Source of the DNA: a virus
DNA: 22,415 bases
IMG/VR virus record: IMGVR_UViG_3300035698_022240
Location: 1-22,415 of that record
Reading direction: 5' to 3' (one strand)
Both the position numbers and the translations under genes were made by a program. Below the pieces are notes generated by a model. The model ran no database searches. It saw nothing but the letters and a program-made list of their open reading frames with translations, and had not been told where the DNA came from. Below, piece after piece: positions 5,761 to 22,288 of the stretch (positions within the stretch are counted from its first letter, which is position 1; every line of letters starts with the position of its first letter).

Positions 5761-6693
5761 ATGCAAAAAGGACAAAAAATGTCAGCCGCACAACGGCAAA
5801 AGATTAGCGCCGCACATCAAGGTCTGAAGCATACAGCCGCCACTAAGAAAAAGCTGTGCGCACAGGCACGACGCGTGGCGCAGCTAGAACGGCTACTAGA
5901 GCCCATACCGTTAGCATATTACTGGATTGGTTTCCTGCTCGCTGATGGTCACGTGACTCCGCGTGGTCAATTGCGATTACGGATCGCAGAATGTGACAAA
6001 GCGCACTTGCTTAAATATGGGCGCTTCATACATTACACAGGTAAGGTAGCCACACACGTGGGCAGTAAACCTACACACCAAAACGACGTGTGCATTGTTG
6101 CCGCTAATAAACAAGTACTGGCGCAACTAGCCGAGTTTGGTTTACGTCCGCGTAAGACATACTATCCGCCGCAGCCGGAAAGTTTACCCGCTGATACCGA
6201 TCTTATGCTATCACTCCTCATAGGTTTTATAGATGGAGACGGCGCAATACAATATCAAACCGGGAGGTCTGATTGTAAGTTGACTATTAAAGTGCACAGC
6301 ACGTGGCTCAGTATACTAGCTGCGCTGCGTCAACGTGTAGTATCGATTTTCAACACAGATATGGCCGAACCCCATATCAATGCGCAGGGCTACGCGCATT
6401 GGTGTATGGCGAATCAGCGGGTGCTGCGTGAGCTTAAGCAGCATGCGATTAGATTAGGTTTGCCGATGTTAGCGCGTAAATGGGATAAGATCGATTTAGA
6501 ACGAGGACCAGGGCGCGGGGAAGTCGCCAAAGAGCGGTTGCTACTGGCGCAACAGTTACGCGAACAAGATTATTCTAACGTAGAAATAGCAAAAACATTG
6601 CACGTTAGCTATGCGTGTATCGAAGCTATGATGTGGCGGGGCAAGCTTATGCGTCGCCAAAAATGGGTTAAATTAAACACAAAGGAGAACTAA
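5761..6693 (+). CDS. LAGLIDADG homing endonuclease, free-standing
   Basis: This 310-aa protein has two LAGLIDADG helices, WIGFLLADG (55-63) and LIGFIDGDG (153-161), each ending in a catalytic acidic residue, so a single chain should form the pseudo-dimeric nuclease. The first 35 residues look like a NUMOD3-type DNA-binding repeat (GQKMSAAQRQKISAAHQG). The C-terminus has a helix-turn-helix (about 262-300, NVEIAKTLHVSYACIE) that probably adds DNA contacts. An AGGAG site precedes the ATG. RNase H upstream and SbcD downstream both look complete, so it is free-standing rather than inside a broken gene. Such enzymes cut genomes lacking them and spread by repair. Codon use is somewhat A/T-richer than that of its neighbours. 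Confidence 0.85.
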   Translation: MQKGQKMSAAQRQKISAAHQGLKHTAATKKKLCAQARRVAQLERLLEPIPLAYYWIGFLLADGHVTPRGQLRLRIAECDKAHLLKYGRFIHYTGKVATHVGSKPTHQNDVCIVAANKQVLAQLAEFGLRPRKTYYPPQPESLPADTDLMLSLLIGFIDGDGAIQYQTGRSDCKLTIKVHSTWLSILAALRQRVVSIFNTDMAEPHINAQGYAHWCMANQRVLRELKQHAIRLGLPMLARKWDKIDLERGPGRGEVAKERLLLAQQLREQDYSNVEIAKTLHVSYACIEAMMWRGKLMRRQKWVKLNTKEN

Positions 6694-12646: not shown

Positions 12647-15217
12647 ATGGCTTTGACACAAATTATGATCTATTGGGGTGATGGTTTCATCCAGGTTGAC
12701 AGTCCGTTCGCCTTCCCCGATTCGATATACAAGAACCTGAAATATTACCACCGCTCACTAGAGTGGGACGAGCGGCTCATGCGCCGCGTATCTTCCGGCG
12801 AATACCGGAATCTGTACACGTTTACGCACGGTTTGCGAGACGGAGAATACGTACAACAGATCCTTACCTACCCCGGATTCGCGCATAGACTCGTGGGGCT
12901 GTTCCGTAAGGAAGCATTACCGTTCGAGTTCGTTGACGTCCGTACCCCTCCTCCTACACCTGACATCGCAGCCGCTATGGCTGGATTACGGGAATACCAG
13001 TATGAAGGTGCGTACACCTGTCTGGCATCTGGCGGTGGCGTATTGGCCTGTCCTACGGGCTGGGGAAAGTGTATGTGTCCTGATACCAACGTCTTACACA
13101 CGAACGGAGAGGTAAAACGCATAGGTGATATCGCAGTAGGCGATACGCTGATGGGCGATGACTCAACACCCAGACGCGTGCTAAACCGAATAGACGGTAA
13201 CGGGCCCATGTACCGTATTACACCTAAGACAGGCCAAACATTCGACGTAGCAGATCATCATATACTCTGTTTGGTACAGTCAGGTGACTGCAAGCGCGAC
13301 AAATACCCTGCCGGGCATATCGTACAGCTTACGGTAGCCGATTACCTTCAACGGAGTAAGACGTTCAAACACAGGCATAAGCTTTACCGTGTACCCGTTG
13401 CGTTCGACGAGCAATCTGTTACGGTAGATCCGTATTGGTTAGGCCTTTGGCTTGGTGACGGCGACTGGTATAGGCCTAACATAACAACGGAAGACGCAGC
13501 AATAGTAGCTGCTATTTACGCTTACGCGGACACTATGGGTTTAGCTGTTACTAATAGCGGTGTACGGGAAACACATCGTACTCCGTCATACGCCATAGTT
13601 AAAACGTCAGGTAAACGTAACCCGTTAACGGATGCCATGCGCGCATACGGATTGCTGAAGTCGCGTAACAAGTTCATCCCGCAAGAGTTCATGACGAACT
13701 CCCGCGAAATCCGCCTGCAGTTACTGGCTGGTCTCATGGACTCAGACGGTAGCCTTAACGCTGGTACGGATTTTGATTTCGTTAATACGAATCACGAACT
13801 CGCAAACAGCGTGGCGTTTCTAGCCCGGTCACTAGGCTTACTGGTACACGACAGTGTGCGTAAATGTACGGGCTTCGGGGTAACAGTTGATGCGTCCCGC
13901 TTACGCATTACGGGCGACACACACCTGGTACCGACACGCTTGAAGCATAAACAAGCTGTGGTACGGCGCCAAAAGAAGAATCCACTCAGAACCGGGTTCA
14001 CAATCGAACGTATAGATGACGGCCCATACGTGGGTGTCCAGCTAGACGGTAACCATCGTTATTTGCTGGGTGACTGCACTGTAACGCATAATACGCATCT
14101 GATGAGCGCCATAATCAAGGCCTACGATCACAAAGAGCTAATTGCGCGTAATACACCCATTACTGTAGTAGCGACTCCGGAGAAGGAGATCACCCGTAAG
14201 GATTATAATGATCTGGTCGAGATGTTTCCCGATAGGGATGTGGGTTTGATCATGTCGGGTAAGAACAAGTACTCAGAGGATATACAGGTCTGCACGCTGG
14301 ACAGTCTGCATAGGCTGACCCTAGACGAAGTGGGCCTCCTGATCGTAGACGAGGTCCATACCGCCCCTACTGAGGCCCGCACAAATCTCATACTGTCTGC
14401 TACGAAAGCTTTGCGCTGGGGGGTGAGTGCTACACCAGCTGGACGCTTTGATGGCCGTGACAGGGTCACAGAAGGCCTTTTCGGGCCCGTGGTGTACCAC
14501 AGGACATATGAGCAAGGCATCACTGACGGGGCATTAGTGCCTATCAAGATATTCTGGGTACCAGCAGGGGAGCCCAGCATAGGCATGGATTCCTACGATA
14601 GGTATTCAGCCCGAACAGCGAAGTACCGTCACGGGATAGAACGGAACGAAAACCGAAATAAGGATATTGTGACCATATTACGCCGTATGCCACCCGCATT
14701 GCAGACCCTTTGCATTATGAAGCATTTGGCTCAGATGGACCACATTATCGCTGCCGCTGACTTCCAGTTGGACTTCGTACACGGAACAGAGCGACAGGAA
14801 GACTTAACCCGTAAGCGGTTGGACAACCTGGCGCCTGTACGTAAAAAAGAGCGTATCGCCATATATGATCGATTCGCGGCCGGAGAGATTCGACGTATCT
14901 TAAGCACGCACATCTACAAGCAAGGGGTCAACTTCCCGCAGCTGAGCGTGATTATTAACGCCGGCGGTGGTGGTGCCTCTATAGCGGCTGCCCAGATCCC
15001 GGGACGAGAAAGCCGAAACATAGACGGCAAAGATGAATCGTATCTGATCGATTTCTACCATCCATGGGACACCGTCACAGAACTAGACGGACGGCTGAAA
15101 GATGGGCCAATTCGTAAAGATGATCTGTCCCGCGAAAAGGTATATACTCGATTGGGCTTCGAACAGGTCTGGTTGAATAGCGTGGATGAGCTACCGCTGT
15201 TGGAGCCCACGGCATAA
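12647..15217 (+). CDS. SF2 DNA/RNA helicase (UvsW-like) containing an intein
   Basis: This 856-aa precursor is a helicase split by a 341-residue intein (142-482), leaving a 515-aa mature enzyme. Motif I is PTGWGK at 136-141 continued by THLM after the intein. Motif II is DEVH (568-571), motif III is SATP (594-597), and the C-terminal QIPGRESRN is motif VI. It resembles phage UvsW-type helicases, which resolve branched recombination and replication intermediates. The N-terminal 110 residues would be a DNA-recognition domain. The mature helicase works only if the intein leaves, since it interrupts the ATP-binding loop. The stop overlaps the next start (TAATG). Confidence 0.88.
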   Translation: MALTQIMIYWGDGFIQVDSPFAFPDSIYKNLKYYHRSLEWDERLMRRVSSGEYRNLYTFTHGLRDGEYVQQILTYPGFAHRLVGLFRKEALPFEFVDVRTPPPTPDIAAAMAGLREYQYEGAYTCLASGGGVLACPTGWGKCMCPDTNVLHTNGEVKRIGDIAVGDTLMGDDSTPRRVLNRIDGNGPMYRITPKTGQTFDVADHHILCLVQSGDCKRDKYPAGHIVQLTVADYLQRSKTFKHRHKLYRVPVAFDEQSVTVDPYWLGLWLGDGDWYRPNITTEDAAIVAAIYAYADTMGLAVTNSGVRETHRTPSYAIVKTSGKRNPLTDAMRAYGLLKSRNKFIPQEFMTNSREIRLQLLAGLMDSDGSLNAGTDFDFVNTNHELANSVAFLARSLGLLVHDSVRKCTGFGVTVDASRLRITGDTHLVPTRLKHKQAVVRRQKKNPLRTGFTIERIDDGPYVGVQLDGNHRYLLGDCTVTHNTHLMSAIIKAYDHKELIARNTPITVVATPEKEITRKDYNDLVEMFPDRDVGLIMSGKNKYSEDIQVCTLDSLHRLTLDEVGLLIVDEVHTAPTEARTNLILSATKALRWGVSATPAGRFDGRDRVTEGLFGPVVYHRTYEQGITDGALVPIKIFWVPAGEPSIGMDSYDRYSARTAKYRHGIERNENRNKDIVTILRRMPPALQTLCIMKHLAQMDHIIAAADFQLDFVHGTERQEDLTRKRLDNLAPVRKKERIAIYDRFAAGEIRRILSTHIYKQGVNFPQLSVIINAGGGGASIAAAQIPGRESRNIDGKDESYLIDFYHPWDTVTELDGRLKDGPIRKDDLSREKVYTRLGFEQVWLNSVDELPLLEPTA
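13070..14092 (+). mobile_element. LAGLIDADG-bearing intein in helicase motif I
   Basis: The 341-residue insert starts with Cys142 (CMCPDTNVLH, splicing block A) and ends VTHN (block G), with Thr483 as the first C-extein residue. Between them is a block B-like segment (TGQTFDVADHHIL), two LAGLIDADG helices (WLGLWLGDGD about 263-272; LLAGLMDSDG about 359-368) and a block F-like DGPYVGVQLDGNHRYLLGD. It should therefore splice itself out and also cut intein-free alleles. Insertion between Lys and Thr of the P-loop (GK/T) is a favoured intein site. Cys1, the terminal His-Asn and the +1 Thr are all consistent with active splicing. Confidence 0.92.
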
Positions 15218-18253: not shown

Positions 18254-18799
18254 ATGAGCAGGAAATACCTGAACGAAAAATGGTGCGTGCGATGTGGCCG
18301 AACAGGCCCGACGCCGTACCTGAAGCAGCATTACCGTAAACTGGTGCATAACCCCCACGACTTCATGATGGGGTTCAGTGAATCAGATCTGCGGGTGCTG
18401 GATCTGGGTTGTGGCAATGGCCGCAATACTGAGTTCATGAAAGAACAGGGCTACACCAATGTAGCTGCCCTGGACATGGTCGGGGATTACGGATGCGCGG
18501 TGCCGCTAGGGAAAGGCAGGTTACCGGTATTCGATAGTACGGCAGATATCGTGCTGGCTAACTTCGTATTCATGTTCCTCAATCAGAAGGAACGTAAGCA
18601 ACTCATTAGAGAGATCAAACGTGTAGCACGATCTGGCTGTACCATCATGGTAGAGCTGTATCCAGCAAAGGATAGTTTCGCCCCGACAGACGAGGCGTGT
18701 GTAGAGCTCTTAGACGAGCTATTCGACCAGCTTAACTGGACGAAAATCCTGAAAAGCAAATATCGCTTTATAGCGAAATGGGGTTCCGATGTCTATTGA
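18254..18799 (+). CDS. class I SAM-dependent methyltransferase
   Basis: This 181-aa protein has the SAM-binding glycine loop VLDLGCGNGRNT (about 48-59), followed by an acidic residue at the end of the second strand (AALDMVGDY) and DIVLANFVFMFL as motif IV-like. An N-terminal CVRCG adds a zinc knuckle or a stray Cys pair. The substrate cannot be told: no DNA-methyltransferase DPPY or PC motif is seen, and the family is usually small-molecule, protein or RNA directed. An AAGGA site precedes the ATG. The end overlaps the polymerase start by 11 bases, so it is part of the replication transcript. Confidence 0.75.
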   Translation: MSRKYLNEKWCVRCGRTGPTPYLKQHYRKLVHNPHDFMMGFSESDLRVLDLGCGNGRNTEFMKEQGYTNVAALDMVGDYGCAVPLGKGRLPVFDSTADIVLANFVFMFLNQKERKQLIREIKRVARSGCTIMVELYPAKDSFAPTDEACVELLDELFDQLNWTKILKSKYRFIAKWGSDVY

Positions 18800-21019
18800 T
18801 CCCGAAGAAGTCATCCCTACGTGGTTGAATAACACCCAGATCCTGAACGGGGTCAAGTGGATAGTGGGCCACGGAGCCCTTCCTGCGGACTGTATGATTG
18901 TAGGGGACTCCCCCGGCCGTGACGATGTACGGTACGGGAAGGTCTTTACCGGTGACGGCGGTACACACATGTTCAAGACAGCCAGGGAATGTGGCTTCGA
19001 CACGAGCAAAGCGTATCTGACTAATGCGGTGAAGTACCAACCCAAAGGTAACAAAAAGGTAAACGCCCACGATCTAAAGGTCTGTGGTCCTATTCTCCAG
19101 GAGGAGATACTGCGGTGTAAGCCCAAGGTGATCATTACGATGGGCGCCAAGGCGTTTAATGCGGTGGTGGGTAAGGGCTACGAGTTCTCACAGTATCGCG
19201 GTACTGAGCTGATGCATCCACTCCATGAAGGCGTGCGTGTATTCCCGCTCTATAGCCCTAATTACGTAGTGCGCAATCCTGACGCGGACCGTTTGTTCCG
19301 ACAGGACTGGAAACAGATAACCGCTACCCATACTGGTAAGACGTTAGAGCCGGATGTCACGGAGTACGTGGTCATCAAGACCGTGAAGGATTTGCGCTGG
19401 TTCAAGGACTGGTTGTTAAAGACTTACCCCAATCCTATCCTGGCAGTTGACTGTGAGTGGCACGGCATCACCTGGATGCACAAGGATCGGTATATCCGGA
19501 CTGTGCAGCTGGGGTACGAAATAGGGAAGTCGGTGGTCATAGAATTCGATGACACCTTTATCCCACATATGGATGAGAGTGGTAAGCTAACCGGAATCAC
19601 CCGTGTACCCGTGATGGATGACCATGATGAAGCCTGGTCTATACTGAGGGAGCTGCTTGAAAATTCTCAAGTGGGGCTATTGGGGCACAACATCATAGCT
19701 GATGGGGAATGGCTCATGTCATACGGCATCGATATTCGGGACAGGGTAGTGTACGACACTATGCTGGCCGAGTACCTGTTGAATGACCAGGGGCCGTGGA
19801 ACCTGAATGAGTGCACAGTCAAGTACACCAATATGGGCCGCTACGATATGGGTCTGGTGCGGTGGAAAGAGATGAATAAGGATCTATGGCGGCACGGCTA
19901 CGGAGCTGTACCCAGAGAGAACCTTATCCCGTACTCCGCGAAAGACGTGGATGCGGTGTTGCGTATAGCAGCCAAACAAGCGCCACTGATGGCCGAGTTC
20001 ATGGAACCCAGAGGTGTTAACGGCGAGATACCCAGCTTATGGGACATCACGTTACAGACGCAGCGCGTACTATACGAGATAGAGATCACCGGAATGGAGA
20101 TTGACGCAGACAGGCTGAAGGAGATAGAGATAGCTTACCTGGCCAAGCTGGCTGACCTGGAAACCAGGTTAGTACAGATGGTAGAGCAGATAGGGATCGA
20201 TAACTTCAATCACCGGTCGCAACCGCAGGTCTCGAAGTTACTGTTTGATACCTTAGGTCTGCAACCGGTTAAGACTACCTCGAACAGGCCCTGGAGTTGG
20301 GTACTGCAACAGGCGCCTGAGCTGCAAGCCACATGTAACCCATCTACGGACAAGACAACGTTGGAGATCTTGGAGGAGTCGCACCCAGTTGTAAAACTGA
20401 TCATGCACGTCCGCCGAGTAGATACCATACGTAAGATGTTCCTGACTACGAAGGATGATAAAGACCAGTCTGATACCGGAGGCGGTATCGGCTCTAAGAT
20501 ATGGCCGGATGGTCGTATGCATCCACGTTTCTCGCAGCTAAGCGATACTGGACGATTCCGCACCAGTAAGCCTAACTGCCAGAACTGGCCCAAACGGGCA
20601 GAAGAAAGTATGGTCCCTGTGTTCGGGGACAAGAAGTCGGTACCACCGGGTGTAAGGACAATAGTAGTACCCACCTATGGCCACGTGTTAATGGAAGCAG
20701 ATTTTATGCAAGCCGAGCTGTTCGTGCTGGCGGCGTTAGCTGGCGATACCACTATGTGGGACGTGCTGACGACACCAGGCAAGGACATGCATGATATGAC
20801 CGCCATATCAGCGTTTGGAATAATCGTATTAGATGCAAGTGGTGCGCCTATCAATCAGGCTGGGGTTCCCGTGGAATCACCAGAACTGTTAGATCTGGCG
20901 GCACGTGACATAAAACAGTTCGAGGAGCTACAGAAGACCTGGATTTACGTAGACCAGAAGAGCAAGCGCATGACGCGTAAGAACTTCAAGTCTGGTATCC
21001 GGGTGAGCGCAAAGAATCT
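18789..21019 (+). CDS. family A DNA polymerase with N-terminal UDG-like domain, exon 1
   Basis: Exon 1 encodes about 743 residues. First comes a uracil-DNA-glycosylase-like domain (about 1-180), with GDSPGRDD (39-46), KVFTGDGG, and SPNY (156-159) in place of the usual HPS. A 3'-5' exonuclease follows, with D221/E223 (VDCEW), N301/D305 (HNIIADGE) and Y382/D386 (YSAKD). Then comes the polymerase domain, with the GRFRTSKPNCQNW stretch, motif A D638 (EADFMQAELF) and the start of motif B, R738/K742. The frame would stop at 21027-21029 in mid motif B, so group I splicing is needed. The link of UDG-like domain and polymerase is known from SPO1-like phages. The ribosome binding site is weak. Confidence 0.9.
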
Positions 21020-21034
21020 TTCGGCTTGACACGT

Positions 21035-21061
21035 ATAACACGTTTGATAATGTGGTGTTAT
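21035..21061 (+). promoter_or_regulatory. hairpin that hides the endonuclease start codon
   Basis: ATAACAC (21035-21041) pairs with GTGTTAT (21055-21061), a perfect 7-bp stem with a 13-base loop. The right arm contains the first two bases of the ATG at 21060. It is probably intron stem P2 or a translation-control hairpin; intron endonuclease genes in T4 are known to have sequestered starts. Confidence 0.6.
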
Positions 21062-21179
21062 GAAACCAACAGAAATAACGTGTAAACAGTGTGGGCGACC
21101 GTTTGTCGCCAGGGACCCAAGAAAAATGTATTGTTCACAAGTATGTAACGGTAAAGCACAACGGGCTAAACAGACCTAA
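21060..21179 (+). CDS. first zinc-ribbon part of intron HNH endonuclease, frame 0
   Basis: A 39-codon frame from ATG to TAA encodes one FCS-like zinc ribbon: CKQCGRPF (8-15), then YCSQVC (24-29). The following frame carries three more ribbons of the same type and the HNH domain. This looks like the natural N-terminus of that protein, separated by a +1 shift at CAG-ACC-TAA-G. Skipping one base there reads AKQT-KVRDNLPERKC without a break. It could be a programmed frameshift, a decaying gene or a sequencing error. Confidence 0.6.
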   Translation: MKPTEITCKQCGRPFVARDPRKMYCSQVCNGKAQRAKQT

Positions 21180-21180
21180 G

Positions 21181-21873
21181 GTGCGCGACAACTTACCAGA
21201 ACGTAAATGTGAGGAATGCGGTACAAAGTTCAAACCATATAGCAAGCGTAATCGGTTTTGCACGGAAGCGTGTAAAACCACTAATAAAAGTCGGACCCGT
21301 AGTTACCCGCATACCTGTATAGGTTGCGCCGTAACATTCACGTCCAAGCTACCACGTACTAAATACTGTTCGCGTAGTTGTGCTCTAACGCACACTATAG
21401 TGGCGAAGGTATTGGTATGCGTGGACTGCGGCTGTGAGTTCGAGTTCGTAGGACGTACACGCAAGCATCGATGTGATGCTTGTTCGGATAAGTACTGGAG
21501 AGGTTATCTTTCCCGCTACTCGTCTGATTACGACGGGCGTTATAGACAACAACTAAGATCTAAGCCAACTAAAACACGCTACGCGTTTCGGAAACTGTGT
21601 TGGACCTACTGGCCTAAATGCTGCGTTATATGTGGCGCATTAGTAAAAGTAGATGTTCACCATATTGACGGAAACGTAACCAATGATTACATTGGCAATC
21701 TAGCGCCATTGTGTAGACAGCACCATAAGCTGACACACAAAAAAGACGGCCGTGATTTGACAATCAAGTTATTTGAACTTTGGCCTGCGGGCCCCCAAGC
21801 AATTGGGACCGCTGTCCAGCAATGGATGGCTGAGCACACCGCTAATTCGGGGAACCCTACGTCATGCAAATGA
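21181..21873 (+). CDS. HNH homing endonuclease of intron 1, main part
   Basis: From GTG 21181 the frame encodes 230 residues. Three Cys-pair ribbons come first (CEECGTKF with FCTEAC; CIGCAVTF with YCSRSC; CVDCGCEF with CDAC). An HNH nuclease domain follows, with CCVICG as the zinc pair, VDVHHIDGN as the catalytic histidines, NLAPLC, and RQHHKLTHK. It would nick or cut intron-free polymerase genes to drive homing. A GTG at 21091 is in frame, but translation from there crosses the frame-0 zinc ribbon and looks spurious. The natural product is probably the frame-0 part joined by a +1 shift. Its last 12 codons lie inside the ribozyme core (P3-P5), so protein and RNA sequence are both constrained. 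Confidence 0.85.
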   Translation: MRDNLPERKCEECGTKFKPYSKRNRFCTEACKTTNKSRTRSYPHTCIGCAVTFTSKLPRTKYCSRSCALTHTIVAKVLVCVDCGCEFEFVGRTRKHRCDACSDKYWRGYLSRYSSDYDGRYRQQLRSKPTKTRYAFRKLCWTYWPKCCVICGALVKVDVHHIDGNVTNDYIGNLAPLCRQHHKLTHKKDGRDLTIKLFELWPAGPQAIGTAVQQWMAEHTANSGNPTSCK

Positions 21874-21953
21874 TACGGCAATCCCGAGCTAGGATCTATG
21901 ATCCGAGTGTAGAGACTTTACACGGTGCACCCCTCGTGGGTGAAGAGAAAGTC
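21837..21953 (+). ncRNA. group I ribozyme core of intron 1 (P3-P8)
   Basis: This stretch holds stems P3, P4, P5, P6, P7 and P8 in the usual order, with P7 (6 bp) and P8 (5 bp) perfectly paired and a GCAA tetraloop in P5. The sequence at 21911-21925 (AGAGACTTTACACGG) and the AAGAGAAAGTCC at 21943-21954 match the conserved R and S elements of group I introns. Confidence 0.85.
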
Positions 21954-21997
21954 CAGACCGCAAACGAGCAATCGGCAGTGAAAACTGTAGTGGTAAG

Positions 21998-22014
21998 CAA
22001 CTTCGGCATTCCGT
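21998..22014 (+). CDS. 17-nt polymerase micro-exon (exon 2)
   Basis: The 17 bases supply the last base of the Leu744 codon, then N-F-G-I-P, and the first base of the Tyr750 codon. Joined to exons 1 and 3 it restores the family A motif B with canonical R-x3-K-x7-YG spacing. Its last seven bases (ATTCCGT) also form the exon arm of intron 2 helix P1. Confidence 0.85.
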
Positions 22015-22288
22015 GGAACTTTGCGGAATTAAAACTTTGTGAATTGCTGGAACACCCTGTCGTAAGCCAGGACAATCAGCAGCCAAGCCCTACATGGGGA
22101 AGGTTCAGAGGCCAGCCGCAAGGCGTAGGATCCAGGGTTAAGGATCCGAAGCGCAAAGGATCGGGGTGTATGCTGCTATATGTACTCTATGAGTGCGGTA
22201 TACACGAGTACCCGATCATGATATGGTCCGACCTACACGGTAACGTGTAGAGACGCTCGCTGACCCGGCGGGCGTCGTAACATAAGTG
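22015..22288 (+). ncRNA. group I intron 2 in the polymerase gene, no ORF
   Basis: This 274-nt ribozyme lies directly behind the micro-exon. P1 is exon AUUCCGU paired with guide GCGGAAU (22023-22029), seven pairs ending in the U-G pair at the splice site. P3 is CTTTGTG/CGCAAGG (22035-22041/22117-22123). P4 is TGCTG/CAGCA (22045-22049/22077-22081). P7 is GGCCA/TGGTC (22110-22114/22224-22228). An extra GGATCC/GGATCC hairpin lies at 22128-22147. P8 is a long stem GATCGGG/CCCGATC (22159-22165/22211-22217). P9 is CTACACG-GTAA-CGTGTAG (22233-22250), and a 9-bp stem occupies 22252-22276. It ends with G at 22288. A 128-codon open frame crosses it by chance. Confidence 0.9.

Follow-up and report, generated by a model that had tools for sequence, protein, structure and literature searches.

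An ordinary ORF-less group I intron in a crowded codon block of a phage family A DNA polymerase gene

The DNA analyzed here (IMG/VR virus record IMGVR_UViG_3300035698_022240, positions 1 to 22,415, hereafter the window) ends within a family A DNA polymerase gene that is interrupted by two group I introns (Table 1). Intron 1 carries an HNH endonuclease gene, intron 2 has no open reading frame, and between them lies the micro-exon CAACUUCGGCAUUCCGU, which starts with the last base of a Leu codon, continues through N F G I P and stops after the first base of the Y codon. The reading frame continues into exon 3 until the contig end. Removal of both introns gives SGIRVSAKNLNFGIPYGRGAMDIAR and restores AKNLNFGIPYGRGAMDIAR, the reading of five relatives (L005, L006, L013, L017, and L019) in which no introns were seen and motif B is uninterrupted. 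Intron 2 is located among the codons of motif B (fingers domain), in the active-site region of the polymerase, and skipping of the micro-exon would, from the reading of the sequence, shift the frame. The first exon also codes for an N-terminal uracil-DNA-glycosylase-like domain (residues 27-176) ahead of the exonuclease domain. Elsewhere in the window, a helicase gene (12647-15217) contains, in frame, an intein-like block of Hint plus homing endonuclease (approximately residues 142-404), and a free-standing LAGLIDADG-like endonuclease gene (5761-6693) lies directly upstream of an SbcD-like gene.

Table 1. Coordinates of the polymerase exons, the two introns and the helices of intron 2 in the window.
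Feature	Position	Strand	Basis or remark
Exon 1, family A DNA polymerase (UDG-like, 3'-5' exonuclease, polymerase domains)	18789-21019	+	Pfam, PHROG 17
Intron 1, HNH-bearing group I, 978 nt (site a)	21020-21997 (core 21829-21957)	+	R1, Rfam below cut-off, L002 identity
HNH endonuclease ORF of intron 1	21091-21873	+	Frameshifted relative to L002 homologue
Micro-exon, 17 nt	21998-22014	+	Frame and homologues
P1 5' strand AUUCCGU, last 7 nt of micro-exon	22008-22014	+	
Intron 2, ORF-less group I (IA-type), 274 nt (site c)	22015-22288	+	Rfam RF00028, R1, exon joining restores NFGIPYGRG
Internal guide sequence GCGGAAU, P1 3' strand	22023-22029	+	
P3 5' strand CUUUGUG	22035-22041	+	Both-sided changes (34 introns)
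P4 5' strand (partner 22076-22081)	22045-22050	+	Invariant, paired in 34/34 introns
P6 and P6a	22082-22104	+	P6 invariant; P6a paired in most of 34 introns
P7 5' strand GGCCA	22110-22114	+	Hand reading, P7 survey, covariation
P7.1 and P7.2, subgroup IA insertions	22115-22147	+	Sequence reading
P7.1 with GCAA loop	22115-22124	+	
P7.2	22128-22133/22142-22147	+	
P3 3' strand CGCAAAG	22152-22158	+	Covariation
P8, extended	22159-22217 (strands 22159-22165/22211-22217)	+	Folding, hand reading, R1
P7 3' strand UGGUC	22224-22228	+	Hand reading, P7 survey, covariation
P9 with GUAA tetraloop	22233-22250 (strands 22233-22239/22244-22250)	+	Folding, hand reading
P9.1 hairpin	22252-22276	+	Folding, hand reading
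Exon 3, cut by contig end	22289-22415	+	

The initial annotation had proposed a group I intron without ORF at 22008-22288, and this span corresponds to intron 2 plus the seven exon bases of P1. Its class was confirmed in agreement by Rfam, by covariation and by R1, a covariance model made from 23 other phage introns from which the window and the contig L016 were left out. RF00028 detected intron 2 with 85.4 bits (E 8.7e-21) and R1 with 111.6 bits (E 3.5e-21). The start drawn by Rfam (21985) is too early, since Rfam mispairs P1 with the tail of intron 1. The folding energy (z = -4.2) was better than that of all 100 shuffled sequences. The P3-P8 core with the guanosine site in P7, a P1 with U·G at the 5' splice site and an internal guide, the terminal ωG (G22288) and in-frame exon joining are all present, as are the insertions of subgroup IA between the P7 5' and P3 3' strands, a GCAA hairpin and a GGAUCC/GGAUCC hairpin. 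Intron 2 is thus very probably a group I intron with the junctions given in Table 1. It was seen in a single contig, as would be expected of an assembly artefact or a structured stretch arisen by chance, but the R1 E value, the covariation and the exact restoration of the frame leave such an origin a negligible likelihood.

P1 and P7 were analyzed in comparison with related introns, and the remaining helices (P3, P4, P5, P6/P6a, P7.1, P7.2, P8, P9, and P9.1) were assigned by hand and verified in the sequence. The full pairing of AUUCCGU with GCGGAAU, noted previously, was corroborated as a P1 of 7 bp closed by U22014·G22023. Its description as unusually clean was overstated, given that, among 119 related cores, 34 are preceded by a hairpin of at least 7 pairs with U·G at its end. 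P10 is weak by hand reading (A-U, a mismatch, G·U, and G-C with the P1 loop). The five P7 pairs are G-C, G·U, C-G, C-G, and A-U. A 5' strand of P7 was readable in 70 cores, 54 of which had a pairing 3' strand: 49 were GACUA/UAGUC, two GGCCA/UGGUC (the window and L016 only), one GAUCA/UGAUC, one GCAUA/UAUGC, and one imperfect. The GGCCA/UGGUC form is therefore rare, yet shared with L016, and on these counts the previous proposal of compensating changes relative to the common GACTA/TAGTC form was right.

Group I introns gathered from phages and IMG/VR by means of a conserved P3-P6 string were aligned with the window (33 introns plus intron 2, 34 in total), and pairs were counted on the structure written from the window. 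Under this structure 91.8% of the cells were paired, a share somewhat flattered because the regular expressions used to pick the introns favor well-formed cores; the covariation is not affected by this selection. The covariation score was 0.256, compared with 0.116 in shuffled alignments and at most 0.10 when the structure was slid, and none of 500 shuffles matched the observed value. Both-sided changes were found in six of the seven P3 pairs and in two of the five P7 pairs, with P7 paired in 100% of the introns.

The identity of intron 2, its helices and the joining of its exons come directly from sequence and comparison, and self-splicing of this compact intron is predicted on the same grounds. 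A guanosine bound in P7 would attack after U22014, held in place by the guide; the freed exon end would then attack after G22288, so that ATT CCG T continues into AT GGC and I-P-Y-G is regained.

The core of intron 1 was recognized less strongly, with 27.8 bits by R1 and 24.5 bits by Rfam, the latter below the Rfam cut-off. With the 5' junction fixed by homology, no convincing P1 or guide was found for this intron, so that this junction rests on protein homology. The first zinc-finger block of its HNH gene (MKPTEITCKQCG..., 21060-21179) is out of frame with the remainder (21181-21873), whereas the homologue of the relative L002 reads through; the HNH domain is readable in intron 1 despite the frameshift. 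The frameshift could come from a sequencing or assembly error, and possibly the homing-enzyme gene is broken. A search of viral contigs with the HNH protein gave no relatives beyond those reached through the polymerase.

The relatives of the polymerase, which are metagenome contigs and may contain assembly errors, were compared at four insertion sites. Site a interrupts the Leu codon of AKNL and site c the Tyr codon of IPY, site b is at NFG^IP, and site d, at QNFP^IQST, is beyond the contig end in the window. L002, whose polymerase is also found in L003 and L007, has an HNH intron at site a, an intron with an HNH-like ORF at site d, and an empty site c with the identical 11 nt ATTCCGTATGG. HNH-bearing introns occupy site b in L004, L015, and L016, as opposed to an intron without ORF in L012, where nothing else was seen. 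Similarly, the site d intron carries an ORF in L002 and L004 and none in L015 (about 250 nt). In L016 an ORF-less intron of 252 nt at AKN^ is followed by the 12-nt micro-exon GUAAACUUCGGU and the HNH intron of 1177 nt at site b. These tandem introns (L016 5213-6653), ORF-less upstream and HNH downstream, are in the reverse of the window order. In the site d introns of L002 (7508-8441) and L004 (8228-9211) the core is 5' and the HNH-like ORF comes after it.

A scan of 2.9 million viral contigs for the core of intron 2 behind NFG at site c yielded 139 stretches, with the core in the window only; the pattern needs exact letters and may miss diverged copies. A profile search of genome contigs with exon 3 gave no relatives, and the plasmid search gave one partial match. 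As to phages carrying one intron but not the other, a comparison proposed earlier, L002 has intron 1 alone, and the pattern scan met intron 2 at site c in no other contig.

Intron 2 cannot home by means of its own enzyme, because no endonuclease ORF was found within its 274 nt. Where homing genes are gained and lost in a cycle, a given site is expected to hold an HNH-bearing intron in some relatives and an ORF-less one in others, and the occupancy observed here appears to fit this ordinary cycle. Intron 2 probably (roughly 0.6) represents the stage of the cycle at which the endonuclease is lacking, and was passed on together with its gene. For site c itself, at which no other occupant was found, the loss of an ORF is presumed.

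The initial annotation had suggested that intron 2 may depend on the HNH enzyme of intron 1 and on co-conversion, the enzyme nicking or cutting intron-less alleles near site a and the repair copying both introns. Since the introns are only 17 nt apart, such repair would usually copy both, and homing in general involves co-conversion of the flanking DNA (PMC3984707; PMC2988022). The 3' ribozyme half of intron 1 is 84% identical to that of L002 over 229 nt, with 57-69% in the nearby exons, which suggests movement or more constraint. Hitch-hiking is possible and mechanically sound, and the spacing stands in its favor, but the comparisons did not support it. L002 carries intron 1 without intron 2, the HNH ORF is frameshifted, and L012 has an ORF-less intron without an HNH partner. 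Exon identity between the window and L002 is no higher near the introns than elsewhere or than to intron-less relatives, so that no co-conversion footprint was seen beside the introns. Introns 1 and 2 were seen together in one phage, the only one known with intron 2 at site c. This passenger origin is considered unlikely. An argument from co-occurrence (ORF-less introns only in genes with HNH introns, Fisher p 0.015) was dropped, because it had miscounted the introns at site d in L002 and L004, which carry HNH-like ORFs, as ORF-less and because the ORF-less intron of L012 is alone. A still more speculative version would be a linked mobile unit, in which the nuclease of intron 1 would open the site in motif B and intron 2 would be carried along through its 17-nt linkage; intron 2 would also break the recognition site of the nuclease and so protect its carriers from intron 1.

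Two further origins were considered, both improbable. In collaborative homing, a known process (PMC3984707), an endonuclease encoded elsewhere would cut the intron-less motif B site. The window contains a candidate in its LAGLIDADG-like gene, and in phage tootiki, whose polymerase is split by an ORF-less intron, the polymerase is followed by a gene for a homing endonuclease; however, the candidate in the window lies 15 kb away. Alternatively, intron 2 could have arrived from another gene by reverse splicing of its RNA, guided by GCGGAAU. The target fully matches the guide, and the best sequence relatives of intron 2 (over about 100 nt) are in contigs outside its polymerase family, but any intron at site c must have a matching guide, and no intron with this guide turned up as a donor. 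Inheritance of an intron without endonuclease remains the preferred reading.

Intron 2 is genuine and, as group I introns go, ordinary; the codon block around it is unusually crowded. Introns of its class are very common in phages, and alone it adds one sequence to them. Motif B of the family A polymerase is an insertion hot spot in uncultured phages (some contigs of about 200 kb), with three or four positions within 17 nt differently filled in relatives, and with HNH-bearing and ORF-less introns at the same positions. This set is suitable for testing how ORF-less introns persist, whether by inheritance, by passenger co-conversion or by blocking a neighboring homing site.

Phage polymerase introns have long been known, and it is the sequence and exact insertion site of intron 2 that are new, not its type. 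The DNA polymerase introns of SPO1, SP82, Bastille, Pf-WMP3, and phiL7 belong to group IA2 and, like intron 2, are group IA introns in phage family A polymerases, but they carry HNH genes and are published from other parts of the gene (PMC3428280). Those of SPO1 and phiL7, checked here, lie upstream of motif A, close to the TGR-SS-PN stretch. Exon skipping has also been published, as have small exons flanked by group I introns of phages (PMC11878797). The phiNIT1 ribonucleotide reductase, SIOphi, and Twort orf142 have two or three such introns separated by a small exon, as in the window. The genes are different ones, and skipping of the 17-nt exon would break the frame here. In Felixounavirus phages (tootiki, L023), the DNA polymerase is split by an intron that is likewise ORF-less, scores 98.6 bits with R1 and is about 75% identical in the P3-P7 core. 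This intron interrupts the same codons of motif B, about 6 nt away from the position equivalent to site c. It differs in its insertion base, its P7 (GACUA/UAGUC) and the type of polymerase, and no adjacent intron was noted. L016 shares with the window the polymerase family, the GGCCA/UGGUC form of P7 and tandem introns in motif B, but in L016 the ORF-less intron precedes the HNH-bearing one, is at another site, and is not the closest to intron 2 by sequence.
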